Shown here: positions 154-45,015 of the stretch, in pieces | Layout of the letters: the number at the start of each line of letters is the position of its first letter | Position numbering within the stretch: the first letter of the stretch is position 1 | Assembly (NCBI RefSeq): GCF_030682845.1 | Contig: NZ_JAUXNK010000109.1 | Location: forward strand, 1 to 45,015 | Direction: 5' to 3' | Source of the DNA: Methanolobus sp. | GTDB lineage: Archaea; Halobacteriota; Methanosarcinia; Methanosarcinales; Methanosarcinaceae | DNA length: 45,015 bases | Position numbers and translations under genes: made by a program | The notes under the pieces: model-generated | Databases searched by the model: none | Seen by the model: the letters and a program-made list of their open reading frames with translations, nothing else | What the model was told of the DNA's origin: nothing

Positions 154-191
154 CCGCCAAGTAATTTTATACTCAATCCCTTTTTTGCTGC

Positions 192-223: not shown

Positions 224-327
224 ATTCGGTTAGGCTGGGGCTTATTCGGCCTGCCCAGCACGATCCGTCCGGCGGGGGCACCGGCATGAAAGAGTTTCGT
301 TCCCTGGAGTTTTGGTTCATGCTTTGC

Positions 328-356
328 TTTATACGTCTATGTTTTAAGAATGTCAA
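328..356 (-). promoter_or_regulatory. Consensus sigma-70 promoter, late operon candidate
   Basis: On the minus strand this reads TTGACA, 17 bases, TATAAA. It points towards base 1 and, through the closed junction, towards the small terminase gene ending at 44776. It is the best housekeeping-type promoter I found and is the likely start of the late transcript, with a leader of roughly 420 bases. The plus-strand terminator at 192-223 has no T run on this strand and should not block it. Confidence 0.7.
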
Positions 357-369
357 GCATTATTTTGGG

Positions 370-408
370 GATTTTCACAGCTTCCCGTGTTTTTTCCACG
401 GTTTTTTG
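370..408. other. DnaA-box-like / A-tract repeats, left control region
   Basis: GATTTTCACAG (370-380) and GTTTTTTCCACGGTTTTTTG (389-408) recur in very similar form, inverted, at 12270-12337. On the complementary strand TTTTCCAC reads GTGGAAAA, close to the bacterial DnaA box TGTGGATAA. Placement between divergent promoters fits an origin or a shared regulator site. Origin function is inference. Confidence 0.4.
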
Positions 409-473
409 TTAGTTTTTTGTTGAGATATATTATATAGTTAGTAGAGTAAAAACATAACGTCTTAATATTGCTA

Positions 474-550
474 CTGTTATTTACCTTAACTGTAAAAATA
501 TAAGTGCTTGATATTATTAGATACGGTTTTTTGGGCATAGAAAATGCACT
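474..550 (+). promoter_or_regulatory. 77-bp early control element, left copy
   Basis: This block aligns without gaps to the reverse complement of 12139-12215, with 61 of 77 positions identical by hand count. The last 28 bases, starting at ACGG, are perfectly conserved and contain a small dyad, GCAT-N5-ATGC. Each copy lies immediately before the first gene of an early operon and points into it. It lacks an obvious sigma-70 -35/-10 pair, so it may be a phage-specific promoter, an operator or an RNA-acting leader. Confidence 0.65.
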
Positions 551-593
551 GTTATTGGCGAGCGCCGGAGATATGGTGCCGTAAAGAACTGGC

Positions 594-667
594 GGGCAAT
601 CCAGGACAATAATAACACCGTCAGGCCCGATGAGAGATCATTGGGATTGCCCCCTGGCGGTTTTTTT
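594..667 (+). terminator. Leader terminator with competing stem (attenuator-like)
   Basis: CCGTCAGG (618-625) pairs with CCTGGCGG (653-660), with one G-U pair, and is followed by seven T (661-667). This is a classic intrinsic terminator 18 bases before the first plus-strand gene. A second perfect 9-bp stem, GGGCAATCC (594-602) with GGATTGCCC (644-652), interleaves with it. The two stems can only alternate or form a pseudoknot. This suggests control of the plus-strand early operon by attenuation or antitermination; the controlling signal is not visible. Confidence 0.6.
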
Positions 668-685
668 ATTGAAGGAGATAAGAAA

Positions 686-1039
686 ATGAGAATCGAGCAC
701 GAAACCAGCAGTTACAATGAGAGGCGATATGGGCGGCCTTGGATTGCCCAAGTGGACTGCACTAAGAAAGCGGGCGGTGAATTTACTTTTGGGCAATGGA
801 TTGGCGACTACCGCAACGGCGGCGAAGGATTGCTTATCCTTGATGGCATCAATCTTGGTGATATATATGCCCGTGGCCAAAAGGATTTTCGCAAACCGCG
901 GAATTCGGCTCCCACTTATCATATATTGGGAGCTGATGGCAAAGGGATTAAGTGTAGTAGTATTGTGGAGGCCCGCAAGGTATCGGCGGCATACGCAGTG
1001 CCCCTAATGCAGGAAGTGGGAGAAGGAGAGGGAATCTAA
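686..1039 (+). CDS. Hypothetical early protein, 117 aa
   Basis: First gene of the plus-strand early operon. The ATG at 686 follows GAAGGAGATAAGAAA, a strong ribosome site, and is preferred over an in-frame ATG at 641 that lies inside the leader hairpins. The protein is soluble, rich in Gly, Arg and Tyr, with no membrane segment or recognised motif. The middle (WIAQVDC, FTFGQWIGDY) looks like beta strands. It is separated from the control element at 474-550 by a terminator-bearing leader, so its expression may depend on readthrough. Small early phage proteins of this kind often take over host processes, but nothing here shows a particular role. Confidence 0.75.
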   Translation: MRIEHETSSYNERRYGRPWIAQVDCTKKAGGEFTFGQWIGDYRNGGEGLLILDGINLGDIYARGQKDFRKPRNSAPTYHILGADGKGIKCSSIVEARKVSAAYAVPLMQEVGEGEGI

Positions 1040-1100
1040 TTTTTACACAGCATAACCTTTGGGGGCCGCGCATCCGACACGCGGAGAAAAAGGAGAAGAA

Positions 1101-1334
1101 ATGGAAAAGCAACCAAGCAGCATTATCATCTACAAAAGGGGTGGCGGATATTATGCCGATGTTACAGGACACTTTGGCGGCGGATACTCTGGTGCCCACG
1201 CCGGAGACACGCCGGAGGAAGCGGCATTGTTTGCCCTCCGAGAAGAAGGGCGATATATCAAAACCAATCCTCTAGGTGGGACAATGCACGCACCAGAAGA
1301 AATCCGCAAAGCCATTGAAACAACGCGGATTTAA
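1101..1334 (+). CDS. Hypothetical early protein, 77 aa
   Basis: Starts at the ATG at 1101, after AAAGGAGAAGAA. An earlier in-frame start at 1059 lacks a ribosome site. The sequence has an N-terminal strand-rich part (SIIIYKRGGGYYADVTGHFGG), then EEAALFALREEGRYI, which looks like one amphipathic helix. This beta-beta-alpha arrangement recalls small HicB-like or double-stranded-RNA-fold domains, but I cannot assign a family. It lies in the same operon as its neighbours, 61 bases after the previous gene. Confidence 0.7.
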   Translation: MEKQPSSIIIYKRGGGYYADVTGHFGGGYSGAHAGDTPEEAALFALREEGRYIKTNPLGGTMHAPEEIRKAIETTRI

Positions 1335-1380
1335 TTTCACAGCCCTGCCGGCGGGGAGATACACCGGCAGAAAGGAGAAA

Positions 1381-1548
1381 ATGATGCAACAAGGATATGG
1401 AAAATGGCATGGCTATGCCACCGACCGAGAAGCGGAGGCCGCCAGGGACAAAGAGGCTAAGCGATTACGAGACCTAGGTTATACGGTTTTGTGCTCAACA
1501 AGAACCACAGATGATGGCACCATGATGTATCTTATTGATGTCAACTAA
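1381..1548 (+). CDS. Hypothetical early protein, 55 aa
   Basis: ATG at 1381 (a second ATG follows at once) after GAAAGGAGAAA. The protein begins with a Gly/Tyr/His segment (YGKWHGYAT), continues as a charged helix full of Ala, Arg, Glu and Lys (residues about 15-33), and ends with strand-like TVLCSTRTTDDGTMMYLIDV. No family is recognised. Its 3' end overlaps the start of the next gene, which suggests coupled translation. Confidence 0.65.
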   Translation: MMQQGYGKWHGYATDREAEAARDKEAKRLRDLGYTVLCSTRTTDDGTMMYLIDVN

Positions 1549-1780
1549 CTTGGAAGAGGAAAAGGAAAAAGCCTGCCTGGAATATAACCAGCAGGTAGAA
1601 GCGGCAGGATACGGGGCAGGGGATAAAGTTTCCTGCTTTGTGGCCTCTTGGACCGGTTGCGGAGGGGAACTTATCACTGGAACAGTCGCAAAGCGGAAAA
1701 AGTATTATGTTGCGCTTGATGTGCCATTTAACGGCAAGAAAAGCGCACACCTGACAAAAGCATGGAGGATTGAGAGATGA
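1538..1780 (+). CDS. Hypothetical early protein, 80 aa
   Basis: Starts at the ATG at 1538 (an alternative TTG lies at 1535) inside the end of the preceding gene and lacks its own clear ribosome site, so it is probably translated by coupling. An acidic N-terminal helix (EEEKEKACLEYNQQVEAAG) is followed by a strand-rich region with VSCFVASWTGCGGELITGTV and KKYYVALDVPF, which looks like a small SH3-like barrel. Two Cys lie close together in the first strand region. The family is not recognised. Confidence 0.6.
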   Translation: MSTNLEEEKEKACLEYNQQVEAAGYGAGDKVSCFVASWTGCGGELITGTVAKRKKYYVALDVPFNGKKSAHLTKAWRIER

Positions 1781-1995
1781 AAACAAAAACAATAAATGGC
1801 GTTACGCTTTTCAGAAGATCAGCATCATCATCGTGTCCTAAGGGCGCTTGGTTTGGGCAAAAACATCATACATCCTGGATACGGGGATACTGGGTGGTAT
1901 TTGAAATTGGGACAAAAGGGATGATAATAGCGGATTGTAGAACAGCTCTTGAAGCACAGCGGTTAATTGCAAAGCTGGAAAAGACGGAGGATTGA
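1777..1995 (+). CDS. Hypothetical early protein, 72 aa
   Basis: The start ATG overlaps the TGA of the previous gene (ATGA) and follows GGAGGATTGAGAG. The protein is mostly beta-like (VTLFRRSASSS, YWVVFEIGTKGMIIAD) with a C-terminal helix (ALEAQRLIAKLEKTED). No known motif is visible. The 12-base ribosome-site segment GGAGGATTGAGA recurs before the next gene, which suggests a local duplication of the initiation region. Confidence 0.65.
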   Translation: MKTKTINGVTLFRRSASSSCPKGAWFGQKHHTSWIRGYWVVFEIGTKGMIIADCRTALEAQRLIAKLEKTED

Positions 1996-1998
1996 GAA

Positions 1999-2226
1999 AT
2001 GACAAGAAAACAAGAGGAGACCGGAAAAGTTAAAGCGGCCTTAAAGTACTTGCCATACCGAATAAAAGTCCGGCATGGCATAGGAACAGGATCGGGATGG
2101 ATTAAAATTTATATCCCGCGCGCGGTTTGGGAGATAGAAAATAGAAGGGTTGAGGTACTTGTTGCTGATGCCGTAGATAGACCGCATACAGAAAATAATC
2201 ATATTTTAGTCACTTGGTATGAATGA
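1999..2226 (+). CDS. Hypothetical early protein, 75 aa
   Basis: ATG at 1999 after GGAGGATTGAGAA, the same initiation segment as the upstream gene. The protein is basic at the N-terminus (KQEETGKVKAALKYLPYRIKVRHG) and strand-like later (WIKIYIPRAVWEI, RVEVLVADAV). Size and charge could fit a nucleic-acid-binding protein, but there is no diagnostic motif. It lies just before the end of the operon. Confidence 0.65.
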   Translation: MTRKQEETGKVKAALKYLPYRIKVRHGIGTGSGWIKIYIPRAVWEIENRRVEVLVADAVDRPHTENNHILVTWYE

Positions 2227-2263
2227 CATACTCGCCGGAGACGGAAGAAAGGAGAAGGGGAAA

Positions 2264-2356
2264 GTGATAATTAACCTTGCAATCTTTTTTTGCGGCTTGG
2301 CACTGGGGTTTATTTGGGGCTGGGGAATCTGCAACACAATAAGAGACAAGGGGTAA
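2264..2356 (+). CDS. 30-aa single-pass membrane microprotein
   Basis: GTG at 2264 follows AAAGGAGAAGGGGAAA, an unusually good ribosome site for such a short frame. The product is almost entirely one hydrophobic helix (IINLAIFFCGLALGFIWGWG) followed by a short polar tail, so it should span the inner membrane once. It is the last gene of the plus-strand early operon. Similar small phage membrane proteins affect host membrane functions or superinfection, but the role here is unknown. Confidence 0.5.
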   Translation: MIINLAIFFCGLALGFIWGWGICNTIRDKG

Positions 2357-2389
2357 TCTTTCCCTTTTCTGGTCCGCCATGACGGAATT

Positions 2390-2409
2390 ATTACTAATAT
2401 GATAGTAAT
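2390..2409. repeat. AT-rich inverted repeat between convergent operons
   Basis: ATTACTA and TAGTAAT form a perfect 7-bp inverted repeat with a 6-base loop. It lies in the 117-base gap where the plus-strand and minus-strand early operons converge. It could be a weak bidirectional terminator or an operator. There is no T run on either strand, so termination is uncertain. Confidence 0.3.
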
Positions 2410-2473
2410 TTACCTGTGGTGCTGAAAAACGGCTCCCCAGGAAGGCCAGGAATCAACGATCTCATCTTAAGCC

Positions 2474-2734
2474 TTATCTTCCCTTCTCGAAAAATCCCCT
2501 TTCCTGCCGACTTCTTTCAGTTGCATCTATGCTGTGATCCTTGCAGTAATTTCTTAATGTGGTAGATATGAAGGTCGTCTCCTGTGACAACCTGCTTTCT
2601 TTCAGCGTCCGCCCTCTTTCTGGTAAATAATCAATGTCGGCGGGTAAATTTCCAGTTCCATTACATATTGGACATGGGATCTTCACTTTTAGCCCGTAAA
2701 CATAACCACAACCTGCGCAATTAGGACATTCCAT
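2474..2734 (-). CDS. DnaJ-type zinc-finger protein, 86 aa
   Basis: The N-terminal 28 residues carry CPNCAGCGY and CPICNGTGN, two CxxCxGxG-like knuckles as in the zinc-binding central domain of DnaJ. Two knuckles should bind one zinc. The remainder is charged and helical with no J-domain, so it is not a co-chaperone by itself. It starts after AAAGGAGGGATAAACA and is the last gene of the early minus operon, four bases after the RuvC-like gene. Small proteins with this knuckle are common in phage early regions; the function is unknown. Confidence 0.7.
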   Translation of the reverse strand: MECPNCAGCGYVYGLKVKIPCPICNGTGNLPADIDYLPERGRTLKESRLSQETTFISTTLRNYCKDHSIDATERSRQERGFFEKGR

Positions 2735-2737
2735 TGT

Positions 2738-3193
2738 TTATCCCTCCTTTTTTATATTCCCTTCTATAAACAGCTTGCCATAATAAACAATTAGCAAAGC
2801 ATCGGCAACATTATGTGTAATCTTGAGATGCGGAAAAAGTTGTTGAGCCTTCTGTTTGCTAATATTCTTATTTCCGCCTGTGAGGCACCCTAACGCCCTT
2901 TGCCATCTTTGAGGTGTAACGTCATGTAATGGATATCTTAACGCGGTAACGACCCCTCTAAGGAAGCCATAGCCCTGCATAAATTTACCAGATGAAGCAA
3001 TTCCTTGCCCTTTCATGGTATGGACTTTTTCTAAGAAGACGAAAGCAATAGTAGATAATGTTGCTTCCCCAGCAGGCCATTCCGCAAGTAAATCGTAAAT
3101 GTCTCGTTCTGTACCTGGCATTTTATATGCCGTAACTTTAGACCCGATAAATGCAATTCCCCCATCTTGACCTGGATCAATACCGATAATCAT
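2738..3193 (-). CDS. RuvC-like Holliday-junction resolvase
   Basis: The N-terminus MIIGIDPGQDGGIAFI is the first RuvC-fold strand pair with the catalytic Asp (GIDPG). A later Glu (FVFLEKVHTM) and a C-terminal segment ending NVADALLIVYYG supply the other acidic residues expected of the family. At about 151 residues it matches phage RuvC-type resolvases. The likely role is cutting four-way junctions and branched DNA left by recombination and replication, so that DNA can be packaged. That fits the ERF and YqaJ genes in the same operon. Several starts are possible (3199, 3196, 3193); 3193 has the best spacing from GGGGGAAG. Confidence 0.85.
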   Translation of the reverse strand: MIIGIDPGQDGGIAFIGSKVTAYKMPGTERDIYDLLAEWPAGEATLSTIAFVFLEKVHTMKGQGIASSGKFMQGYGFLRGVVTALRYPLHDVTPQRWQRALGCLTGGNKNISKQKAQQLFPHLKITHNVADALLIVYYGKLFIEGNIKKEG

Positions 3194-3227
3194 CATCACT
3201 CTTCCCCCAACTAAATTAATTCGGCCA

Positions 3228-3518
3228 TCATCTAAAAAACTCCCCGTACTTTTCTCTCATTTCTTCCTTTATTAGCCTTGCCCGATAGAAATCCTGAACC
3301 GTTAAAGCTTTTTTCCCTTGCCCTCCTTCCTCTCGATCCTCACGATCAAGAGCTTTCTTCCAAATTCTAAACTTGAATGCAGCCAGACCTTGTTTTTTGT
3401 ATCCAAGGTATTCCCGATCTTCTGCAGAACAACACCCCCCACACAATCCACGGCTTCTGATAATTTTTTCGCGAAGGCAATTTTTACACATTCTTGGTTT
3501 TCTCACTTTTTTGTTCAC
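3228..3518 (-). CDS. Putative zinc-binding hypothetical protein, 96 aa
   Basis: Contains CKNC and CGGCC about 16 residues apart, a treble-clef-like Cys4 arrangement. A basic linker and a long charged helix follow (KKALDREDREEGGQGKKA, DFYRARLIKEEMREKYGEFF). I chose the GTG at 3518 because it overlaps the stop of the upstream gene (GTGA). An ATG at 3491 just before CKNC is the alternative, and a longer frame starting at 3572 would overlap the upstream gene more. It may bind DNA or act as a regulator, by analogy only. Confidence 0.6.
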   Translation of the reverse strand: MNKKVRKPRMCKNCLREKIIRSRGLCGGCCSAEDREYLGYKKQGLAAFKFRIWKKALDREDREEGGQGKKALTVQDFYRARLIKEEMREKYGEFFR

Positions 3519-3829
3519 AATCCACCGGTTGTTCTTGTAATTGGTTGCCCCTTTCCTGTATCCGAGCCACAAACGCCAGGCATTATCACAAAACCAATTT
3601 GCGGTTCCTTTCTCCCGTGTTCTATTTCTTCCAAAACGGCCTGTATAATCAAATCCACAAATTTGTCAATTGTGTCGGCGATATAATCTTCCGGCACCCG
3701 TGCAGGAATCCTAAATAAATACATTAGTAATCTCTTTGCTTCTTGTTTTGCGGTTTCACCTTTCTTTGGCCGATCCATTGTTTCACAAACCGCATCCATT
3801 GTTTTGAGCATTGCCTCAATATTGTCCAT
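3515..3829 (-). CDS. Hypothetical early protein, 104 aa
   Basis: Starts at the ATG at 3829 after AAAAGGAGGATAAAATA. A longer frame from 3889 lacks such a site. The protein is predominantly alpha-helical, with Met- and Glu-rich amphipathic helices (NIEAMLKTMDAVCETM, KQEAKRLLMYLFRIP, DKFVDLIIQAVLEEIEHG), then a flexible Gly/Thr tail. It may be a small oligomeric adaptor. No family is recognised. Its stop overlaps the start of the next gene. Confidence 0.65.
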   Translation of the reverse strand: MDNIEAMLKTMDAVCETMDRPKKGETAKQEAKRLLMYLFRIPARVPEDYIADTIDKFVDLIIQAVLEEIEHGRKEPQIGFVIMPGVCGSDTGKGQPITRTTGGL

Positions 3830-3849
3830 TATTTTATCCTCCTTTTCAT

Positions 3850-4107
3850 CTAAACATTCCCCGCAATTGCCTTGCCAAATGCCATACATACATAATTCGG
3901 TTCAAGTCCTATACCACCCAATAAATAAGTTACATGCTTCCGCAGTTCACGTCCAGTGTATTCCTTGGTTCGGGGATCCCACTCACGCAATATAAGCACA
4001 TCGCCAACACGGAATGCTCTATCGTCTTTCCTGAGTTCAAATGTTTTTTCCCCATTCCGGACCGGCTCAAAAAACTCAGCTAAAATTTTCAGTTCATGTG
4101 TTTTCAT
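3850..4107 (-). CDS. DUF3850 (ASCH/PUA-like) protein, 85 aa
   Basis: The sequence MKTHELKILAEFFEPVRNG followed by KTFELRKDDRAFRVGDVLIL is the hallmark of DUF3850, a small PUA/ASCH-like barrel thought to bind RNA or modified nucleic acid. The C-terminal GLEPNYVCMAFG completes the expected domain, and the length is typical. Phages carry this gene widely in early operons; its target is unknown. The start overlaps the previous gene's end (4094-4107), so translation is probably coupled. Confidence 0.85.
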   Translation of the reverse strand: MKTHELKILAEFFEPVRNGEKTFELRKDDRAFRVGDVLILREWDPRTKEYTGRELRKHVTYLLGGIGLEPNYVCMAFGKAIAGNV

Positions 4108-4228
4108 CTTCCATCTCTTCTTCTAATTCCTTTATCCAATCATTATATTCTCTTTCATCCCGTACATCGTCCCATATTTTATCCATCATCCGCTCATAGC
4201 GACGGTTTAATTCGTTAAAGCTTACCAT
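4094..4228 (-). CDS. Small acidic helical protein, 44 aa
   Basis: ATG at 4228 follows CAAAGGAGGGATTTGCC and overlaps the stop of the Gp37/Gp68 gene. The product is one highly charged helix (NRRYERMMDKIWDDVRDERE) with an acidic end (ELEEEMEDENT). A closely related but frameshifted copy lies on the other side of the Gp37/Gp68 gene at 5042-5172. It could be an accessory or DNA-mimic peptide, which is only a guess from charge. Confidence 0.65.
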   Translation of the reverse strand: MVSFNELNRRYERMMDKIWDDVRDEREYNDWIKELEEEMEDENT

Positions 4229-5007
4229 GGCAAATCCCTCCTTTGAAGTTTCTCTGGCCATTCTACTATATCTTTACTTAATTTTCCGTTGATGTGTAAT
4301 TGCTTGACAAATAATGAGACACTTGCCGCCAAGCATTGATCAGCAATACTTTCAGCCCATTCTATTTTCATCGGTCTGCCCGGACGATCACCACATGTTT
4401 CACCGCCGAGGATGACGGCGTCAATCCCCCATTTATTATCCGCAGGGCACCCGATAAGATGCCATTCGATTTTGATAGATGATGGTAAAGGACAATAACA
4501 TTCTCTCTTGAAATCAATTGACCCCAACATTGGCTCAATACTCAAAAACTTCTTTCCTGGCACCTGGAGGAAAATAGGAATTTTCTCATCCGCTTCCTGC
4601 TGGTTACAGATAGTGAGGCCATGCCAGACATTAGGCAATTCCTCTGCCCTCTCACTGGCTATTCCGGCGCGTTTTGTTAAAATCAAAAAGGTATGCTGCT
4701 GACACTTCTCTATTACGTCATATACTTCTCGTCTAAAATTCTGCATAACTTCGGCATGAAAAAAATCATTCCAAACCGCATACACGGTCGGTTTCCGGCG
4801 CGTCAGGATAATATCGAGACGCTTGGGATTAGTGATGATTTCCCCAGTAAAACATGGTTTTCCTTTATCGCAATAGGTTAATCCTTTAACTCCAAACCGG
4901 TTCGTCATCACCGCCGACCAGCAATGGTCACATCCTATACTACAAGGAGTGCAACCATCAATGAGGCCAAGTGGCAAATCCCAAAATCTACCTTCTGATA
5001 TATCCAT
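4222..5007 (-). CDS. Phage Gp37/Gp68 family protein (DUF5131), 261 aa
   Basis: The ATG at 5007 follows TTAAAGGAGGGTAAAATA. The N-terminal region has WDLPLGLIDGCTPCSIGCDH and then CW, containing C-x3-C-x2-C as in radical-SAM-like iron-sulfur proteins. Further family hallmarks follow: an NDFFHAEV segment, HTFLILTKRA, LPNVWHGLTICNQQEAD, FLSIEPMLGSIDF and VILGGETCGDRPGRPM. This order matches the Gp37/Gp68 family, whose enzymatic activity is not established. It is likely a cytosolic iron-sulfur enzyme acting on nucleic acid or nucleotides; that role is inferred. It is flanked by two related micro-ORFs, one of them broken. Confidence 0.85.
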   Translation of the reverse strand: MDISEGRFWDLPLGLIDGCTPCSIGCDHCWSAVMTNRFGVKGLTYCDKGKPCFTGEIITNPKRLDIILTRRKPTVYAVWNDFFHAEVMQNFRREVYDVIEKCQQHTFLILTKRAGIASERAEELPNVWHGLTICNQQEADEKIPIFLQVPGKKFLSIEPMLGSIDFKRECYCPLPSSIKIEWHLIGCPADNKWGIDAVILGGETCGDRPGRPMKIEWAESIADQCLAASVSLFVKQLHINGKLSKDIVEWPEKLQRRDLPW

Positions 5008-6630: not shown

Positions 6631-7002
6631 TCAATTACTGCGTTTCTCCGCCAAAAAGGTTCTTCCCTTCATCCATTCAAATAATTTTTTCACTTTGTTT
6701 TTTGTTTTCCTTTCTCCCTTCCATTCAATAATTACTTTAGTAGATGGAAAAGGATTGTTATGAGTTTGACTTTTATCATGATTTCTCTTTTCCCAATAGG
6801 CATCCTCATAGCTCATTGGATTTGAATGTCCAATATAACCCGATTCTGCTGTTGTCGTTAGGACAACATATTCGCCCTGAATATGTTTTGCTTCCTCTGC
6901 TTGCCGATCGTTTATGATGTTAGAATTTCTTTCACTTGACCATTGAGAATATGATTGATCGTAACGATCATAGTGTGTTCCCCCTTCTCTTTGTCCTACC
7001 AT
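6631..7002 (-). CDS. Hypothetical early protein, 123 aa
   Basis: ATG at 7002 follows TAAGGAGGAGAAAATT. The polar N-terminus is rich in Tyr, Ser, Asp and Arg (GGTHYDRYDQSYSQWSSERN) and probably disordered. A strand-like middle (GEYVVLTTTAESGYIGHS) and a basic C-terminus (WKGERKTKNKVKKLFEWM) follow. The end could bind nucleic acid. No family is recognised. Confidence 0.6.
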   Translation of the reverse strand: MVGQREGGTHYDRYDQSYSQWSSERNSNIINDRQAEEAKHIQGEYVVLTTTAESGYIGHSNPMSYEDAYWEKRNHDKSQTHNNPFPSTKVIIEWKGERKTKNKVKKLFEWMKGRTFLAEKRSN

Positions 7003-7093
7003 AATTTTCTCCTCCTTATAATTATTGATATAACCAATCAATCAATCCGACGCCGGGATCGGGCTATGGTTTCCCGATCACTCTCGGCACGGG

Positions 7094-7480
7094 TTATCTC
7101 TGCTCAACAAAAGCATTCCATGTTTCTTTTTTAGTACCTTCCTCCCTCTCTTTCCACCAACACCAGAGATCTGCCAGAGCGTTGGGAAGGGATTCATCAT
7201 ATATTCCTGGAGTCAGTAATATCCCCAACCCTACCTCAATCATTCCCTTATGTTTTTGTAGCATTGTACCGGCCGGCAACTCCTCCAGCAACTCATCAGT
7301 GAGGGGAGCGGAAAAAATACTCCACCGCTCAGGACGGTTTACCATATCTAACGTTTTCGATCTTAATTCCCACTTGTACTTACGTTTGCTATAAATCCAC
7401 CAGAGTTTAGTCTCCTTCGACCATCCTACGGCAAACAGTTCGTAGCTATGTTTTAAATCGCAAACATACTTTGGGTTCAT
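7094..7480 (-). CDS. Hypothetical early protein, 128 aa
   Basis: Starts at 7480 after AGAAAGGAAGCTAAGT. It is rich in Trp (eight or more) and charged residues, with SYELFAVGWSKETKLWWIYS and LADLWCWWKEREEGTKKETW. There is no membrane segment because the Trp clusters are interrupted by charge. It may be a compact beta/alpha domain. No known motif is visible. It lies between the NinB-like gene and the 123-aa gene in the replication operon. Confidence 0.65.
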   Translation of the reverse strand: MNPKYVCDLKHSYELFAVGWSKETKLWWIYSKRKYKWELRSKTLDMVNRPERWSIFSAPLTDELLEELPAGTMLQKHKGMIEVGLGILLTPGIYDESLPNALADLWCWWKEREEGTKKETWNAFVEQR

Positions 7481-7537
7481 ACTTAGCTTCCTTTCTCACG
7501 TTCGTAACTAATAATTTATCCATTCTCATCTCCCTCT

Positions 7538-7942
7538 CTATAATTCAAACATCGGCGGTTCGCTAGGTGATGGAATATAAACATTAAGAAATTCGGCGGA
7601 CCATTGTTGAATTTGTTCGTAATATTTATTGAATCTCACCGTGTCCATATCCGCCGTACTTTCAATAATTGTTAGCCCTGTTTTATCATCTACCCGGCTG
7701 GCAAATTTCTGTTTCAGGGCGTCGTGCATTTCATCCCGGCTGAATCCGGTATGCTCACAAAGGATATCCACAGCGATACCAAAATAGGCCCGGTTCTGCT
7801 GGATACTTCGCTGGCTTTTCTTCTTCCGTAACAAAACCTCTACGTATTGCCCTTCATACTTTGACAGATGGACCCGGAAGCGATTAGGAGCTTCAAGAAT
7901 CAGTTTTCCCTTTTCAACCTTTCCGCAGAAGAGAGGATTCAT
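7538..7942 (-). CDS. NinB-like recombination accessory protein, 134 aa
   Basis: The segment KKSQRSIQQNRAYFGIAVDI followed by LCEHTGFSRDEMHDALKQKF is the recurrent core of phage NinB-like proteins, which resemble the lambda NinB (Orf) recombination mediator. Lambda Orf helps load the recombinase by displacing single-strand-binding protein; the same role with the ERF annealing protein here is inference. I chose the ATG at 7942, preceded by AGGCAAGG, over the ATG at 7966, which has no ribosome site. Confidence 0.65.
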   Translation of the reverse strand: MNPLFCGKVEKGKLILEAPNRFRVHLSKYEGQYVEVLLRKKKSQRSIQQNRAYFGIAVDILCEHTGFSRDEMHDALKQKFASRVDDKTGLTIIESTADMDTVRFNKYYEQIQQWSAEFLNVYIPSPSEPPMFEL

Positions 7943-7974
7943 AGCCTTGCCTAATGTGTTACGCATATTATGTG

Positions 7975-8139
7975 TTATGTGTTAATTTTTTCATAATTAA
8001 AGCATTCTGTTCGACCAGAGGAATTTATGTCAATTTCAATTTCATCGTTGCCACATTGATGTTGATATGCTTCTCTTTCATCTTCTTTGAAAACATAGTA
8101 AACACAATTCTTTGCTTGACAGAGAACTTTGACTAACAT
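7975..8139 (-). CDS. Small Cys-rich protein, DUF1540-like pattern, 54 aa
   Basis: ATG at 8139 follows TGTGGAGATTATC. Spaced cysteines (LCQAKNCVYYV, QCGNDEIEIDI, TECFNYE) follow the DUF1540-like order of a CxxxxC pair, a later Cys before an I-x-I strand, and a final T-x-C near the end. Four cysteines suggest metal binding. It overlaps the methyltransferase remnant at 8133-8237 by a few bases. Confidence 0.55.
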   Translation of the reverse strand: MLVKVLCQAKNCVYYVFKEDEREAYQHQCGNDEIEIDINSSGRTECFNYEKINT

Positions 8140-8237
8140 GATAATCTCCACACAACAACCGGCTCAAGATACGGCAGAACTTCACGGCAATCACTGTGAT
8201 AGATCAGGATTCCGGCATGATCGTAATAGGGGGTCAT
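8133..8237 (-). pseudogene. N-terminal remnant of a DNA methyltransferase
   Basis: ATG at 8237 overlaps the exonuclease stop (ATGA). The 34 residues (YYDHAGILIYHSDCREVLPY, then LEPV) match the N-terminal strand of phage DNA modification methylases, where this is followed at once by a catalytic (D/N)PPY motif. Here the frame ends at TAG before any such motif, so the protein lacks AdoMet-binding and catalytic parts. It looks like the leftover of a deletion that fused its start to the next gene's ribosome site. A functional 34-aa peptide is less likely. Confidence 0.55.
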
Positions 8238-8848
8238 TTCAAAGCCTCCAGTTTTCGAACCATCAGGATAAGTTCTGCCGCGAAGTCATCAAGGGCTTTT
8301 GCCAGCTTGCTGATAAAGGGTTCATCCCTTTTTATCTCTAAAATTAAAGGTGGTAAACCAGCATAGGAACTCATGAAATAGCAAAGTTCCCGCTCTGTAA
8401 CGTAAAGGGACATCTGGCACTGCCCGAAGTAATCAGACGGGAGCTTTCCATCGAAAAGGTATTTCACATGAGTTTTTAACATCGGATTTTTCAGTTCAAG
8501 TATAGCATTTTCTCCTACAAGGCCATCGGGCGAACAATGGTACAGTTTCCATTCATCCTTGTAAACGATCCCGACCTGCCGTACTTCTACCCCGTAAATC
8601 ATCGTGAAAAGGCTTCTGGAGGTGTTTTCTCGTTCGATGCCATCCAGCATAGCCTGGGACTGAAAAGACTCCTCACAATAGCCTGTGATTGATTCTCCGG
8701 CCAGTTGGTAAAGGTAATCGATCCTCTGCTTGGATATTTCCCCCGAATTTGTGATAATCTTGGAAATAGATGAGGATCCAGGATTGCCGGCCCGGGCCAA
8801 GTACCATTCTTCTGAACGTTGGTTAAAAGAATCAATTATTAAACTCAT
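8234..8848 (-). CDS. YqaJ-type viral recombinase / 5'-3' exonuclease, 204 aa
   Basis: The opening QRSEEWYLARAGNPGSSSIS is the YqaJ signature. It is followed by the nuclease residues: Glu in GIERENTSR, SPDGLVG, ELKNP, and the QCQMSLYVT helix. These match lambda-exonuclease-fold enzymes that digest one strand of duplex ends to leave 3' tails. The start overlaps the ERF stop (ATGA), the usual exonuclease-annealase pairing of phage recombination systems. The length is normal for the family. Confidence 0.9.
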   Translation of the reverse strand: MSLIIDSFNQRSEEWYLARAGNPGSSSISKIITNSGEISKQRIDYLYQLAGESITGYCEESFQSQAMLDGIERENTSRSLFTMIYGVEVRQVGIVYKDEWKLYHCSPDGLVGENAILELKNPMLKTHVKYLFDGKLPSDYFGQCQMSLYVTERELCYFMSSYAGLPPLILEIKRDEPFISKLAKALDDFAAELILMVRKLEALK

Positions 8849-11640: not shown

Positions 11641-11885
11641 TCCTTAACTTCTCCTGTGATTTTGTTAAGGGATTTAGTTTTTTCATCTCTCATCTCTTCA
11701 ATCTCTTTTCTCAATGCATCCTCGTGAAGTTTACGTCTCCAATTTGGCATTGTATAACGTTCTTCCGACCCGAGCGGCTCGTCCTGAATGAAGAGCGAGA
11801 CATCGCAGCAGAGAGATTTCATGCCTTTGCCGTTGATTTTTATAACACAGGGTTCAAGGCATTTTTTGCATCTCACGACGCGCAT
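11607..11885 (-). CDS. Putative zinc-ribbon protein, 92 aa
   Basis: ATG at 11885 follows AGGGAGATATAAT. The N-terminus has VVRCKKCLEPC and later SLCCDVSLF, giving a CxxC pair and a later Cys pair as in a zinc ribbon. The C-terminal half is a basic/acidic helix (WRRKLHEDALRKEIEEMRDE) that could form a coiled coil. Possibly a small DNA-binding or adaptor protein. No family is recognised. Confidence 0.6.
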   Translation of the reverse strand: MRVVRCKKCLEPCVIKINGKGMKSLCCDVSLFIQDEPLGSEERYTMPNWRRKLHEDALRKEIEEMRDEKTKSLNKITGEVKEWCAKHIMKKP

Positions 11886-12106
11886 ATTATATCTCCCTTG
11901 AATTTCTCGGTCTTGGCGCGACTTCCTTGAAGTGCTTCTATGCCTTCACGCCAGACAGAATAGTTTAGAGGTTTTTTTGAAGAACTTCGCTTTTGAAATC
12001 CTATCCAGCAGTTAAAACCTTTACCTTTCAAGAAATTAAAATGAGGTAAACAGTCTTCCTCGGAAGGCAACCACTTCGTTACTCTGAAATACGGTTTTTT
12101 TATCAT
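11873..12106 (-). CDS. First gene of the minus-strand early operon, 77 aa
   Basis: ATG at 12106 follows AAAAAAGGTGAAGTT. An earlier in-frame ATG at 12145 lies inside the conserved control element and has no ribosome site. The protein is basic and aromatic (MIKKPYFRVTKWLPSEEDCL, GKGFNCWIGFQKRSSSKKPL). It may bind nucleic acid. Being first after the 77-bp element, it should be the earliest product of this operon. Confidence 0.6.
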   Translation of the reverse strand: MIKKPYFRVTKWLPSEEDCLPHFNFLKGKGFNCWIGFQKRSSSKKPLNYSVWREGIEALQGSRAKTEKFKGDIICAS

Positions 12107-12138
12107 AACTTCACCTTTTTTATCCGTTATCCCAACAT

Positions 12139-12215
12139 AGTGCATTTTCTATGCCCAAAAAACCGTATTCAATAATATTAGCTACTTGCATTTTCGTTTT
12201 TATTGCAAATAACAG
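12139..12215 (-). promoter_or_regulatory. 77-bp early control element, right copy (inverted)
   Basis: This is the inverted counterpart of 474-550: same length, no gaps, 61 of 77 identical by hand, and a perfectly conserved 28-base end containing GCAT-N5-ATGC. It points into the minus-strand early operon. The pair thus frames the whole early region, from about 550 to 12139. Confidence 0.65.
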
Positions 12216-12269
12216 AAGGAAAATCACTTACTTATGATTATTTGACTTTAATGCTGCGAAATTATTGGG

Positions 12270-12337
12270 AAAAAACCGTGGAAAAAACTGGGGAAAAACA
12301 CATATTGCCTGTGATTTTCACCAAAAACTGTGGAAAA
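12270..12337. other. DnaA-box-like / A-tract repeats, right control region
   Basis: Motifs include AAAAAACCGTGGAAAAAAC (12270-12288), ACTGGGGAAAAAC just after it, the dyad GTGATTTTCAC (12311-12321) and CTGTGGAAAA (12328-12337). TGTGGAAAA differs from the DnaA box TGTGGATAA by one base. The same words occur inverted at 370-408. This could be a replication origin or regulator binding site; origin function is inference. Confidence 0.45.
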
Positions 12338-12762: not shown

Positions 12763-13245
12763 TTACAGACTCACGTCATTTAGTCTTGCAAATTCTCCGA
12801 ATAACTCTACCGCTGCATTGTTATATGCCATTGCTGCCAATTCTCTTGATGAATGATAACCTAAGTGTCTCATTCTATAATTATGTTTAATCTGTGCAAT
12901 CCATTTTTTAGCTAATTTATGCCAACAAACTCCTTTGTAACCAGACCTAGACGTTAAGGGAACCTTTCTGTTAAATGCGTTTTGGTGGATGCTGCATATC
13001 CTTAAATTCTTTTTTTGGTTGTTTAATCCATTCCCATCTATGTGGTCTGACATCATATTGCAGGGTGTATTCAATAATTCTTGATGCATGGCTATGGTAG
13101 TTCTATGCCCATTGATTCTAACATGACGAATAGCATAACAAGTTCTGGCGCATTGCCTTGGATGCCATTTGAACTGTGATATGTAATCATAATTTTCATC
13201 ATCAATTAGAACCGTTCTATTCTGTGTTAATTTTATCTCTTTCAT
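12763..13245 (-). CDS. HNH homing endonuclease with AP2-like DNA-binding domain, 160 aa
   Basis: Residues about 40-95 form an HNH nuclease: the His pair and Asp in MMSDHIDGNGLNNQKKNLRI include SDHIDGNGLNN, with the final Asn in QNAFNR. Residues about 100-150 (SGYKGVCWHKLAKKWIAQIK, ELAAMAYNNAAVELFGEFAR) form an AP2-like beta-sheet DNA-binding domain. This pairing is typical of free-standing phage homing endonucleases that cut lacking genomes and spread by repair. It lies between the endolysin and small membrane genes, so its insertion kept the lysis cassette intact. Confidence 0.9.
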   Translation of the reverse strand: MKEIKLTQNRTVLIDDENYDYISQFKWHPRQCARTCYAIRHVRINGHRTTIAMHQELLNTPCNMMSDHIDGNGLNNQKKNLRICSIHQNAFNRKVPLTSRSGYKGVCWHKLAKKWIAQIKHNYRMRHLGYHSSRELAAMAYNNAAVELFGEFARLNDVSL

Positions 13246-13247
13246 TA

Positions 13248-13688
13248 TTATGCCCTGAATAAGTAAATTCTGTTTCGTCCCTTTGGTATCTTACCCATGT
13301 CAATATGCAGCCAAGGGACAGTTGCTTCTATTCGCATAATCTTTATGAGCCGTTCATCGTCTTTGTTTTCCATAATATGGAGTCGCATTTTATCATAATC
13401 TGCGCCCTTAATATGGCAATCAGCAGCATTGCCCATTCTATGCTGGCTAAACTGTGCCCCCACAGTGCATTCAGGAGGTCTATAACCGCAATACTGACGT
13501 GCATAGGTAGAAGTGTTCCCCCACCAGTTATTAACCGAAATAGGGCTTCCCAAGAAGTCTCGCAGGCCATCCAAAGAATAAAGCAGATCGGGCGTGAACA
13601 GTTTCCACGCTTCTTGGATTGTTTCCCTTTCACTGTATTTGTAATAAGTATCCCTATCAATAATCTCGTAAATCTGGAAAAAGCGCAT
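13248..13688 (-). CDS. Peptidase M15A endolysin, 146 aa
   Basis: The zinc site of M15A peptidases is visible: SQHRMGNAADCHI gives the S-x-H-x-x-G-x-A-x-D motif (residues about 80-92), and PWLHIDMG supplies the second His. The enzyme should cut D-Ala-containing peptide cross-links of peptidoglycan. There is no signal peptide, so export needs the neighbouring membrane proteins. Start at 13688 after TAGGAGGTAAAAC. The single-domain length suits a globular endolysin without a cell-wall-binding domain, more usual for Gram-negative hosts. Confidence 0.9.
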   Translation of the reverse strand: MRFFQIYEIIDRDTYYKYSERETIQEAWKLFTPDLLYSLDGLRDFLGSPISVNNWWGNTSTYARQYCGYRPPECTVGAQFSQHRMGNAADCHIKGADYDKMRLHIMENKDDERLIKIMRIEATVPWLHIDMGKIPKGRNRIYLFRA

Positions 13689-31710: not shown

Positions 31711-32379
31711 TTAAGTTCCTGCTATTTTTAATGATGGCTGAAATGGTTTAGTAATCTTTGCCCCTTTGCTAAGATTTTCTTCTTTTGTTAACGGCTGAAG
31801 GTTCTTTAATCTCCAGCACAACTTAAAGTCAAAATCTTCTGGTTTTTCAAAATTGAAAATTGATACTGGAATGACATGATCTATGTGCCAATATTTGCCC
31901 TGGTTTTCCCACGTCATTCCTGGTTTAAATAATTTTTCGAGATGCTCCATTAATTGTTTTAGAGTATATCCAACAAGTTCCTCCCAATGACGGCCCGCTT
32001 TTGCTCCCTTAAGAGAAGAACGGATACCGTTACTAACTCCGTCGCTCAGCCTGATTTTAGGGTTATCTTTTCTTCTCTCCCTCGAAAAATCTGCCTGATA
32101 GCCTTTTGTCTTACTAATTCCCCCTTTCCAGTTATAATGGTTCTCACCTTTAAGCTTCTCGCTCCTTTTTCTTTTGCTTTCGTCTGAATGCCTTCGCCCC
32201 ATATTGGCTGCGCCTATTTTTCTTTTAGTTTCCTCCGATTGTGGTTTACCGAATTGGGGATGGTTCTCACCTTTAAATATCTCACTCAATTTTCTTTTAG
32301 TTTCTTCTGAAAGCTTTCGTCCAATGTTGGCCGCGCTCAATTTTCTTTTAGTTTCTTCCGAGTGTGGTTTATTATGCAC
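31711..32379 (-). CDS. HNH endonuclease with NUMOD3 repeats, 222 aa
   Basis: Residues 1-85 contain four repeats of the [17 protein letters not shown] / [17 protein letters not shown] type, the NUMOD3 DNA-binding motif of homing endonucleases. The C-terminal half holds the nuclease: [15 protein letters not shown] and [16 protein letters not shown] provide the His, Asp and Asn pattern. The same C-terminal half occurs in the gene at 34608-35336 with a different N-terminus. It is inserted between tail genes; its GTG start overlaps the upstream stop region and its stop precedes the next start by one base. Confidence 0.85.
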
Positions 32380-32877: not shown

Positions 32878-33696
32878 TCATCTTCCTGCTTGCTGCCAAC
32901 TCGTATCGGCAAAGCTTTCATCTGGATTGCCTCTATGTATGTTTGTCGAAAATGACTCTAACATCATAATATTAAATTCATTCAAAAGGTCGTCATGCAG
33001 CGATTTGTCTCTGGCAATAGCGATAGCTAACTCTGCGGCAAGTTTTAGGACAAGACATGATATGAAAAGGCTTGAAAAAAGCGCTGCATCCCTGATTTGT
33101 TTTATATACTGAACAAATATCTGGCCATTGCCATCAATCTCGTTCGTAACGATAAATTTCCCTTCTGAATCCCATGTGGATTGTTTGTATATCGTCGTTT
33201 CGTTTACTGCGACGACTGAAAGGCAATCCGACGGCATAGCATACTTAAAATTGTATATATAGGCCGGACGGGCATATAATTTAAGCTTTGCATTGTTTAC
33301 CAACGTTTCAGCAACAACTTCTTCATGTTCCTCAAGAGTAAGGGCGCCAGCGGCAACGGATTTAATGTCGTAACTATTGTTATTGCTTTTCGAATCTTGA
33401 ACCACCACTATATCGCCCGATTCAAAGCCCGCTGTTACAAAACCATTACCGCTGTCCGTTATTGTATCGGGATTGGCATTATTGAAGGTTATGGTTCTAT
33501 CTGAACAGTTAAGCAATCCTGCGGCTTTAAGCCTCGTTCTCTTCAAGGCAAATTTCCAGGGGTGAAGAACTAAAAGTTCATCCCGAACCTGCTCGTATAA
33601 AACAGGAAGATTGACATCCTCTTTCTCCGCAATGTTTTCGACCCTTGCTGACCCGATTCTAGATAACGATAAGTTACAAATGTCCACAACTGTCAT
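32878..33696 (-). CDS. Tail tubular protein A-like protein, 272 aa
   Basis: The start TVVDICNLSLSRIGSARVEN is the hallmark opening of podovirus tail-tube A (gp11-like) proteins. The helix VLYEQVRDELLVLHPWKFAL and the later strand/helix core with VQYIKQIRDAALFSSLFISC and LKLAAELAIAIARDKSLHDD agree. It attaches to the portal and forms the adaptor ring. An extra beta insertion (about 70-140) with DTITDSGNGFVTAGFESGDI is present. The palindrome array lies directly upstream. Confidence 0.8.
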   Translation of the reverse strand: MTVVDICNLSLSRIGSARVENIAEKEDVNLPVLYEQVRDELLVLHPWKFALKRTRLKAAGLLNCSDRTITFNNANPDTITDSGNGFVTAGFESGDIVVVQDSKSNNNSYDIKSVAAGALTLEEHEEVVAETLVNNAKLKLYARPAYIYNFKYAMPSDCLSVVAVNETTIYKQSTWDSEGKFIVTNEIDGNGQIFVQYIKQIRDAALFSSLFISCLVLKLAAELAIAIARDKSLHDDLLNEFNIMMLESFSTNIHRGNPDESFADTSWQQAGR

Positions 33697-33743
33697 GCGC
33701 TGTCTCTCTTGTGTTACTTTTTCCTAATTCGTGTTAAACTCAA

Positions 33744-33872
33744 CTACCGTTTTCGGTAGCGTCGACACACCCCTTTTCGGTAGCGTCGAATGGTTAAAAT
33801 CAAATTTAATGCTACCGTTTTCGGTAGTTGTTTGCCCTTTTTTTCGTCTTTTAATGCTACCGTTTTCGGTAG
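33744..33872. repeat. Array of CTACCG-TTTT-CGGTAG palindromes
   Basis: Perfect 16-bp inverted repeats lie at 33744-33759, 33812-33827 and 33857-33872. The last extends to 18 bp with outer G and C. A half-site TTTTCGGTAGC lies at 33774-33784. TTTTCGGTAGCGTCGA occurs twice (33750-33765 and 33774-33789). Copies three and four share the preceding TTTAATG or TTTTAATG context. The array fills the 196-base gap between the winged-helix gene and the tail-tube A gene. Confidence 0.9.
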
Positions 33873-33892
33873 CCCTTATATATATGCCATAT

Positions 33893-34210
33893 CTATCGTC
33901 TTTTATAAAGTTTCCAATTCTCTATGAGAGAGTAAATATTAGTTCTTCTATAAAGACCACCCTGTTGTTCTTTTTCTATAAAACCTAATTCCATCAATTG
34001 TCTGATCGCACACGAAAAAGTATTCGTTTTCATATATTCTCTTGCCTGCGAATACGGAAATTTCACGGTCGCTTGTTCTGATTTACAAGTCTGTGCTCTC
34101 AACAGCAAATAAGCTATTCTCGAAGCGTTAGTAAGTTTCTTAAAAGCGTCACTTCTTAACATCTCCTTTGTAATAAAAACAAAAGGTGGAAGCCTATTTC
34201 TTTTCTTCAT
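33893..34210 (-). CDS. Stand-alone winged-helix DNA-binding protein, 105 aa
   Basis: After a basic start, residues 12-60 give FVFITKEMLRSDAFKKLTNA and SRIAYLLLRAQTC. A wing-helix core follows (YSQAREYMKTNTFSCAIRQL, MELGFIEKEQQGGLYRRTNI), much like RepA/DnaD-type replication initiator winged helices. Start at 34210 after GAAGGAGGTAAAG. Its 3' end abuts an array of perfect palindromes that are plausible binding sites. It is an unusual cargo in a late operon and could be a repressor, an initiator or a mobile regulatory gene. Confidence 0.75.
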   Translation of the reverse strand: MKKRNRLPPFVFITKEMLRSDAFKKLTNASRIAYLLLRAQTCKSEQATVKFPYSQAREYMKTNTFSCAIRQLMELGFIEKEQQGGLYRRTNIYSLIENWKLYKRR

Positions 34211-34308
34211 CTTTACCTCCTTCTCAGGTAATTTAGATGAAAGGGGGGTTAATTGAGAAGGAATTAACCGATTACAGGGTGCGACCCCAACCCTTTCACC
34301 ACATAAGT

Positions 34309-34584
34309 TTATGTGCTATCTCTTCTTGCCAACTGGAGGGTATTCATTAACTTAGATTTTCCCCATCTTCTGTCAAATCCTTTTCCCATCGCCTCTAACT
34401 CCATTTGTAATTTTTCTATTTCGTTGGCCTCATTAACAGGTTCTACCTTGGAAATTTCAGCCATGTCTTTGAAGAATGGCCGGACTGAGAAGGGGATTTC
34501 TTCAATATCATCAACCGTAATTATTTGTCCTTCCTCGACAAGGCTCTCCCAGAAACACTTGTGGGTACATAACCAATTTTGCAT
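34309..34584 (-). CDS. Hypothetical protein, 91 aa
   Basis: ATG at 34584 follows AGAGGAGACAGGAAACT. It has an N-terminal Trp/Cys region (NWLCTHKCFWESLVEEGQII), a Pro-containing acidic middle (EEIPFSVRPFFKDMAEISKV) and a basic C-terminus (GKGFDRRWGKSKLMNTLQLA). No family is recognised. It lies between an HNH endonuclease gene and the winged-helix gene, so it may belong to the inserted cassette. Confidence 0.55.
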   Translation of the reverse strand: MQNWLCTHKCFWESLVEEGQIITVDDIEEIPFSVRPFFKDMAEISKVEPVNEANEIEKLQMELEAMGKGFDRRWGKSKLMNTLQLARRDST

Positions 34585-34607
34585 AGTTTCCTGTCTCCTC
34601 TCTTGCT

Positions 34608-35336
34608 TTAAATCGTCAATGAAGGTTGAAAGGGCTTCTCAAGTTTTTCGCCTTTCTTTGCATTCTCTTTAGGCCCCAACGGTTGTAAATTGTTCAATGA
34701 CCAACATATCCTGAAATCAATGTCATCTGGCCTCTCAAAATTAAAAGCTGCGATTGGAATTTTGTGATCTATTACCCAAACCGTTCCATAATTATCCCAG
34801 GTCATGCCTGGCTTAAACCTCTTTTCAAGATGCTTCTTCAATTGCTCGATTGTATATCCTACAAGTTCTTCCCAGTGTCGATTGTTCTTTGAAACTTTGA
34901 GAGAATTTCTGATATTACTTCTTATTGCATCGTTCAATCTGCCCCTAGGTGTACCTCTTCTTTTTAGAGATGCCCTTTTCCCTAATTCTTTTGCTCTCTC
35001 AGGATGATTTTTCCGCCATTGTTTTCCGACCTCTGTGCATCTTACCCGATGGATCTTATGCCATTCTCTGTTTTTTTCAGATAACCTCGCCCTTCCTTCG
35101 GGAGTGCTCTTTCTCTTTTCAATTGACCTTTTATAAGATTCTCGTGCTTTATCAGGATTTTTTCTTTTCCACTGTCTGACAATTTCTGCATGTTTTTTTG
35201 GATGATCCTTGCTCCATTTTTTGCTTCTTTCAATTTCGCATAATTTGCAAGTATTCCAATGACCATCTTTCTCGCGCTTATCTTTATAAAAGGCAATCAG
35301 TTCTTTTAATTCACCACACTTAGAACATTTTTTCAC
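34608..35336 (-). CDS. HNH endonuclease with zinc-finger and basic repeat N-terminus, 242 aa
   Basis: The N-terminus has CSKCGELKELIAFYKDK and CKLCEIERS, a Cys4 zinc finger, then repeated basic segments (WSKDHPKKHAEIVRQWKRKN, WRKNHPERAKELGKRASLKR). The C-terminal 100 residues (WVIDHKIPIAAFNFERPDD, LCW-like ICWSLNNLQPLGPKENA) match the nuclease of the gene at 31711-32379. Probably a free-standing homing endonuclease. GTG start at 35336, with a distant AAGGAATTAAG site. Confidence 0.85.
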   Translation of the reverse strand: MKKCSKCGELKELIAFYKDKREKDGHWNTCKLCEIERSKKWSKDHPKKHAEIVRQWKRKNPDKARESYKRSIEKRKSTPEGRARLSEKNREWHKIHRVRCTEVGKQWRKNHPERAKELGKRASLKRRGTPRGRLNDAIRSNIRNSLKVSKNNRHWEELVGYTIEQLKKHLEKRFKPGMTWDNYGTVWVIDHKIPIAAFNFERPDDIDFRICWSLNNLQPLGPKENAKKGEKLEKPFQPSLTI

Positions 35337-35344
35337 GACTAATC

Positions 35345-35950
35345 TTAATTCCTTATGGCAATTACTGCATACACCTCAGAAGCTGCATCAATAGCGCCAG
35401 CGGTAAAATTTCCAAAAGTGATGGCAACAGTATTCGCCGCAGACGCTCTCACATTCACTATGCCCAATCCTGCTGTATTGGTAGGTTTGTTGATAATCAA
35501 CTTATCGGTAGTCGCTAAACCAGTTACGGTAAATGTCTGTTCTGCTGTTGTATTTGCTGCCACAGAAGCAGGGTCAATAGTAGACGCATAAACAACGATT
35601 TTAGTAATCACGGTTCCCTCACCAAGAGCCAGAGACGTTCCGGTGGCTACACCTAATGCCGGTGTTGTCAAAATCGGACTGGTAAGTGTTTTATTAGTAA
35701 GGGTTTGAGAAGCCACTAAACCAACAAAGGTATCTGAAACATTTAGAATTGTCCATGTTCTATCTGCCGTTGGATCGGTTATCGCCAGGAAGGTCTGATG
35801 AGCATCATAGGTTGCCCCTTCAAATTCGATAGGTATGGCACCCCGAAAAACGGTTTTCTTTGTAAATGTCGTCACGTCATACATAACAGCTGCATATACA
35901 GCCGTAGTAAAGGCAATCAATATTACCATTGTTAGAAATATCTTTTTCAT
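35345..35950 (-). CDS. Fibre-like protein with signal peptide, 201 aa
   Basis: Residues 1-20 are a textbook secretion signal: two Lys, a hydrophobic core (IFLTMVILIAFTTAV) and a YA-A cleavage site. The mature part resembles phage fibre shafts (ASQTLTNKTLTSPILTTPAL, GVATGTSLALGEGTVITKIV) with a beta-rich end (ANTVAITFGNFTAGAIDAAS). A secreted virion-like protein is unusual, because tail proteins assemble in the cytosol. It may act in the periplasm or on the cell surface. Start at 35950 after AAAAGGAGAATAGAAA; it follows the cement protein after a terminator. Confidence 0.7.
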   Translation of the reverse strand: MKKIFLTMVILIAFTTAVYAAVMYDVTTFTKKTVFRGAIPIEFEGATYDAHQTFLAITDPTADRTWTILNVSDTFVGLVASQTLTNKTLTSPILTTPALGVATGTSLALGEGTVITKIVVYASTIDPASVAANTTAEQTFTVTGLATTDKLIINKPTNTAGLGIVNVRASAANTVAITFGNFTAGAIDAASEVYAVIAIRN

Positions 35951-44874: not shown

Positions 44875-45015
44875 GTTTTTTTTGGTGGTCATTTTGGACC
44901 TCGGGACCTTTGGGGTCTTTCGATTATATTAGATATGTTGGGGCGCTCAAGCCATACGGCTGACGCTCGGGAGGACACACGGCGGTAAGTTCTCACGCCC
45001 CCGGAATAATGCTTA
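44875..45015. repeat. Terminal direct repeat, right copy (contig closure)
   Basis: Exact copy of bases 1-141. Joining the two gives a closed molecule of about 44,874 bp. The stretch 44777-44874 before it has no gene and continues the non-coding control region that runs to base 685. Confidence 0.95.

Follow-up and report, generated by a model that had tools for sequence, protein, structure and literature searches.

A small winged-helix (wH) protein and the array of palindromic sites beside its gene appear to form a stand-alone RepA_N-like initiator domain with a cognate iteron origin, carried as an accessory module by the phage analysed here. We give this reading a probability of slightly under 60%, judging from sequence comparison, a predicted protein structure and analogy with known initiators. 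Coordinates refer to the window, that is, the entire 45,015-nucleotide stretch of DNA under study.

Results

The wH protein (P0001, 105 amino acids) is encoded by a stand-alone gene on the minus strand (33893–34210), with a ribosome binding site (GGAGG) just 5′ of it. The array lies 3′ of this gene and directly 5′ of a tail tubular gene (32878–33696), all on the minus strand. Its first site (33857–33872), 20 bases from the wH stop codon, reads CTACCG-AAAA-CGGTAG on the minus strand; the second (33812–33827) follows at 45 bp, the third (33774–33783) at 44 bp from the second, and the fourth (33744–33759) at 24 bp from the third. Sites one, two and four are perfect palindromes (CTACCGTTTTCGGTAG on the plus strand), and site three is a degenerate half-site (TTTTCGGTAG on the plus strand) in which CTACCGAAAA alone is retained. 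With up to two mismatches allowed, the window contains 4 matches against 0.49 expected (sd 0.69), and 0 of 100 shuffles of the window reached this number. In the whole 2.87-Mb assembly (G000), the sequence CTACCGN4CGGTAG occurs just at the three places in the array. These data confirm an earlier note on this DNA, which had described three perfect palindromes and a half-site next to a 105-residue wH gene. The same note placed the array close to the wH stop codon, which is correct, and saw nothing else in the gap, which is not: an A+T-rich box, TTATATATATGCCATA (33876–33891, plus strand), adjoins site one at the 45-bp end of the array and almost fills this gap.

The AlphaFold2 model of P0001, computed together with six family members, consists of helices and a wing (pLDDT 84.5) and presents a winged-helix fold of the RepA_N/DnaD type. 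A Foldseek comparison with the PDB returned 5kbj, 4pql, 4pt7 and 4pta as the best matches (E ~1e-3, TM ~0.65); the best eight are N-terminal domains of RepA_N initiators, including one Rep–DNA complex, and DnaD follows next. A profile search of PDB sequences aligned RepA (4pql/5kbj) over almost the entire domain (E 0.015). The earlier assignment of a RepA/DnaD-like winged helix is thus borne out by model and structure search. The match of P0001 to the Pfam family RepA_N (PF06970; 15.1 bits, E 0.023) falls below the gathering cut-off of 30. P0001 contains no C-terminal domain; like most short members of its family, it amounts to the DNA-binding domain alone.

The contig carries a 141-bp direct terminal overlap (1–141 and 44875–45015), which marks it as a circular and completely assembled phage of 44,874 bp; it is probably not an integrated prophage. 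Its structural genes are podovirus-like, of the BPP-1 type: a GP7/phrog_212 capsid protein, Bbp16, a head-tail adaptor (phrog_332), a tail tubular protein (phrog_394) and a terminase (phrog_675). The phage may be a podovirus of a methanogen; alternatively, the bin may include a contig from a bacterial phage. Two other contigs of the assembly (L236, contig C1, and L237, contig C2) look archaeal and methanogen-like, with genes for an MCM helicase, HdrDE-like proteins and F420-type enzymes, and the phage itself has an endolysin-like gene (13248–13688; phrog_894/Peptidase_M15).

On the minus strand of the window, a structural gene (35345–35950) is followed by an HNH gene (34608–35336), a 91-residue gene (34309–34584), the wH gene, the array (33744–33872) and the tail tubular gene. 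Related phage contigs, with major capsid proteins 73%, 64% and 46–49% identical to that of the window phage, show the order structural gene, 91-residue-type gene, tail tubular gene, with the last two 9–25 bp apart. The wH gene and array are absent from these relatives (L110–L113, L235) at the matching junction, and the HNH gene is absent from the same relatives at a separate junction. A counterpart of the 91-residue gene, 34–43% identical and syntenic, is present in L110–L112 and L235, while a 96-residue gene occupies its place in L113; the full 48-kb record that contains L113 has no match to P0001. The earlier note had regarded the 91-residue gene as odd and the region 33697–35344 as a single inserted cassette. 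Neither view survives, since related phages conserve this gene in a syntenic position and keep it without the wH gene and array on one side and without the HNH gene on the other. The comparison points to two separate inserts that flank one conserved gene, and to the wH module as an accessory element acquired through an insertion of roughly 0.6 kb between this gene and the tail tubular gene.

The wH leader (34211–34308, minus strand), as read from the sequence, probably belongs to this insert because relatives show just 9–25 bp between the two conserved genes. It carries GGTTAATT..AATTAACC at 34247–34269 and an 8-bp repeat, CCTTCTCA/TGAGAAGG, at 34219–34226 and 34254–34261, which overlaps the wH Shine–Dalgarno sequence. 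Across 34215–34269, CCTTCTCA/TGAGAAGG pairing competes with the GGTTAATT/AATTAACC hairpin. The repeat could possibly mask the Shine–Dalgarno sequence and so control translation of the wH gene.

Several other features of these phages deserve mention. The window contains three genes for HNH or homing-type endonucleases (34608–35336, 31711–32379 and 12763–13245). L235 (G054:C115), which lies in a genome that belongs to the same order, is another phage of this structural type, with a capsid protein 46–49% identical and a lysozyme-like gene (11823–12314) that resembles GH108 by eye. In L110, a second tail-tubular-like gene (6767–8341) has its middle swapped for tandem NPKNISLRAIVWNGSVFCAVG-type repeats, possibly a beta-propeller insert.

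No usable match came from single-sequence searches with P0001, which covered phages, plasmids, viral contigs, the PDB and 393 genomes of its phylum; the single weak match from that phylum carries internal stops. We entered the family with a DNA pattern for GFI[DE]-x4-GG and then with a broader pattern, modelled in part on a protein family whose own sequence had no match among phages and plasmids. The first pattern led to L243, a homologue 59% identical to P0001 that lies beside a terminase gene and has four copies of GTGCCATTATCGACAC directly after its stop codon. Siblings from the broader pattern (L246, L248, L264) have still other arrays. A profile search identified members in 9 of 378 genomes of the Methylomonas phylum and in 20 of 395 genomes (about 5%) of the phylum of G450, which we take to be Desulfobacterota, judging from gene content; 10 of 46 and 8 of 85 genomes in two classes contain members.

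These homologues reside in unrelated viral contigs, in bacterial genomes and in a Pseudomonas phage, vB_Pae_U1. The vB_Pae_U1 protein, which a search with a sister sequence detected at E 6e-4, is annotated "replication protein O"; its gene precedes a DNA primase gene and carries at the 3′ end four GGTACAGAAACTGTACC-type sites. Of six members, one matches the O-like phrog_345 at 3.6e-4; members also match phrog_8102 ("replication initiation protein") or the DnaD-like phrog_186. Neighbouring genes are mixed (helicases, integrases, ParB, terminase, HNH) and not uniformly replication genes. L245, L268, L281, L284, L303 and L317 are distant or show no clear array.

Searching viral contigs with the site sequence of the window revealed no matching arrays. 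The matches listed from genomes were for the most part an intergenic repeat, present in acidobacterial MAGs and unrelated to the array, and were discarded. TACCGN4CGGTA palindromes in pairs that span about 60 bp are very frequent in some acidobacterial MAGs (MNJR, QHXQ, JAKEER) and also occur in Nocardioides iriomotensis and a Planctomycetaceae MAG; the loci in question (L116, L124, L149, L160 and others) are unrelated to the wH family.

The association between gene and array was assessed by a neutral count of repeats in 300-nt windows along 38 homologue loci. At least four repeats were present in 19 of 37 windows centred on the wH stop codon (−150 to +150), the peak of the distribution, compared with 10 of 35 directly after the stop (0 to +300), 4 of 37 directly before it (−300 to 0) and 0–2 of about 34 in most other windows. 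Against shuffles of their own region, 17 of the 38 loci reached p 0.05 or less; by manual sorting, 16 of these 17 fall among the shorter ORFs, no longer than about 175 residues. Some longer members have the repeats inside the 3′ part of the coding sequence. The earlier note had proposed to look for such sites near homologues: most carry an array at the stop codon, each with its own site sequences, in unrelated contexts. This observation supports the idea, also put forward there, that protein and array are a matched pair. Similarity between proteins correlates weakly with similarity between sites (Mantel r=0.21, p=0.004).

Although the sites differ in sequence from locus to locus, they are semi-palindromes around an A-rich core, similar to that of the window at many loci, and their geometry recurs. 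Spacings of 22–25, 32–35, 42–46, 53–54, 91–95 and 102–106 bp are repeatedly found. The commonest plan consists of four helically phased sites about 24, 44 and 44 bp apart; examples include the window (45, 44, 24), L286 (46, 44, 24), L243 (24, 43, 46), L246 (25, 43, 44), L277 (22, 43, 44) and L278 (22, 44, 44). The phase concentration at a period of about 10 bp (R=0.55) was reached in 0 of 5000 smeared nulls; like the statistics given here in general, this test and those of the box were devised after the pattern had been seen, and related loci are not independent.

The A+T box is conserved along with the array. Its family consensus, about TTCTATAnnTnRCCA, ends in CCA and lies about 20 bp from the array end in the commonest plan. 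Owing to variable spacing inside the box, a fixed-width consensus missed it at many loci; a motif sampler (9.8 bits of information against 6.7–7.1 in shuffles) and a strict gapped pattern (17 of 26 array ends against 2.1% of random windows) performed better. Among held-out loci, 9 of 10 have array and box; five of these arrays were found with the algorithm already used, the others by inspection of the printed sequence by eye, and L317 shows none. In six loci, the window included, the whole plan of array and box is mirrored relative to the wH gene, so that the box of the window faces back into this gene. The literature searched, with few subscription journals, gave no description of the four-site spacing combined with an A+T box.

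GC skew is uniform across 33.8 kb and shows no strand-bias switch at the array, a weak test because nearly all genes of the window lie on one strand. The sole switch in the contig falls within 1–4500, where the skew changes sign near 1–3 kb; this is a candidate for the main origin or terminus region.

Discussion

In RepA_N replicons, the iterons are semi-palindromic and run together at a poly-A tract (PMC7145576); PLE satellites show co-variation between their origin and the RepA_N domain (PMC8263062). The window array, with its three sites and half-site near the gene, has the form of such iterons, and as a set of phased repeats beside A+T-rich DNA it also resembles iteron origins at large. 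Since the same logic applies, we read the module as an initiator domain with its iteron origin, in support of one of the options raised by the earlier note. With RepA_N initiators (RepA of pSK41 and pTZ2162, RepA of the Vibrio cholerae PLE), the wH family shares the DNA-binding fold, semi-palindromic iterons at an A-tract, domain–site pairs that diverge together, and small arrays at or beside the gene. In contrast to these initiators, the window module lacks the C-terminal domain, scores below the Pfam cut-off and has its sites at the 3′ end of the gene or after its stop; the family furthermore shows conserved helical spacing and an A+T box, and occurs in phages and Gram-negative bacteria. The mechanism of initiation by RepA_N proteins has been stated as unknown, and Gram-negative members have been reported as very rare (PMC7145576).

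Other known systems offer partial parallels. The rep-oriV region of SGI1 has four 17-bp iterons and A+T-rich DNA directly downstream of the initiator gene, with a reported DnaA box (PMC7433901). The wH module likewise combines four iterons and A+T-rich DNA beside a putative initiator gene, but differs in initiator family and in the iterons themselves. The presence of a putative wH initiator, about four palindromic iterons and adjacent A+T-rich DNA is also reminiscent of lambda O-type initiators, as are the annotation of one homologue as "replication protein O" and the match of another to phrog_345. The iterons of lambda lie inside the O gene, and the C-terminal domain of O binds P. Most short wH members differ from O in that they are the DNA-binding domain alone.

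How might such a module work? Dimers of the wH protein would bind the semi-palindromic 16-bp sites (putative P0001 target CTACCGAAAACGGTAG). Helical phasing of the sites, at intervals of about 24, 44 and 44 bp, would let bound dimers stack on one face of the DNA and together distort the A+T box, about two turns past the outermost site. The conserved box is the expected place of opening or loading: it may be opened, or it may be marked for loading of a replisome, which phage or host would have to supply since the wH protein lacks a C-terminal recruitment domain. Each of these steps, from DNA binding through strand opening to a possible role in replication, is inferred. In the window phage, the module would probably act as an extra origin or as a determinant of copy number or incompatibility. 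It is probably not the sole origin of this phage, given that it is accessory, sits among late genes and coincides with no switch in GC skew. Its location among late tail genes, its absence from related phages and the uniform skew count against the origin reading as a whole, as do the Pfam score below cut-off, the missing C-terminal domain and the mixed neighbours of homologues.

The main rival explanation is a transcriptional regulator with its operator array, in which the A+T box would be a TATAAT-like −10 element for control of the regulator's own or neighbouring genes. The box does resemble a −10 element, lies at an almost constant distance from the last site and by our reading points downstream in most loci, and small wH proteins such as MarR/SlyA match the profile weakly. 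Nevertheless, we regard this explanation as unlikely because the six mirrored loci, the window among them, would read back into the wH gene and because neighbouring genes vary widely between loci. Furthermore, no sigma-70 promoter was found at 33600–34350, and the array lies 3′ of the wH gene, outside its promoter. Control of the tail-tube genes, the other option of the earlier note, is for similar reasons the less likely one: homologues adjoin many different genes, and the box faces into the wH gene.

An accessory insert with rapidly diverging sites and a domain that lacks a replisome-recruiting part could also serve against satellites or superinfecting phages, with the RepA_N-type domain and decoy iterons, derived from a satellite or plasmid, occupying or titrating the origin or initiator of the competitor. 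The precedent is Odn, the origin-directed nuclease of ICP1, in which a RepA_N domain is fused to a nuclease (PMC8263062). Like the wH protein, Odn is a phage-borne RepA_N-type domain outside a complete initiator; in contrast to Odn, a fusion with a T5orf172 nuclease that comes without its own origin, the wH protein is unfused and accompanied by cognate sites. A joint Odn-like action of the HNH and wH proteins was rejected, as they are encoded by separate genes with a conserved gene in between. A simple decoy would require neither a conserved box nor a four-site geometry, our searches turned up neither a satellite or plasmid that shares these sites nor such arrays in viral contigs, and P0001 is unmatched in the phage and plasmid collections. 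We consider an anti-satellite role improbable.

Even less probable is a partition complex, in which a TubR-like small wH protein on centromere-like repeats would segregate DNA. TubR appears at Foldseek rank 39 and two homologues neighbour ParB-like genes, but RepA_N and DnaD clearly outrank TubR, no tubulin-like or ParM-like partner was found among the flanking and early window genes scanned, and the A+T box would be left unexplained. Finally, terminator hairpins or chance repeats beside an unrelated gene can be dismissed together with an Rfam-type RNA, for although two palindromes score as terminator-like (2 found, 0.6 expected), on the sense strand the palindromes are not followed by a long run of T, Rfam gave no match, and the sites recur at the same position with fixed spacing, differing sequence and often imperfect symmetry.

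Conclusions

Beyond the window, there may be, though we think it less likely than not, a widespread and so far undescribed class of minimal origin modules, each made of a bare DNA-binding domain that lacks a replisome-recruiting part and a fixed composite site in which four phased, fast-diverging iterons would join an invariant A+T-CCA box. If this is true, a conserved factor of host or phage would recognise the box, and the modules would pass between phages, satellites and islands as exchangeable cassettes for replication or incompatibility. If the wH family holds up as described, site recognition would be separable from replisome recruitment. Its many natural domain–site pairs of constant geometry would make the recognition code readable, and the computable signature of a wH gene, an array at its stop codon and a CTATA..CCA box could lead to origins and incompatibility loci in phages and satellites.
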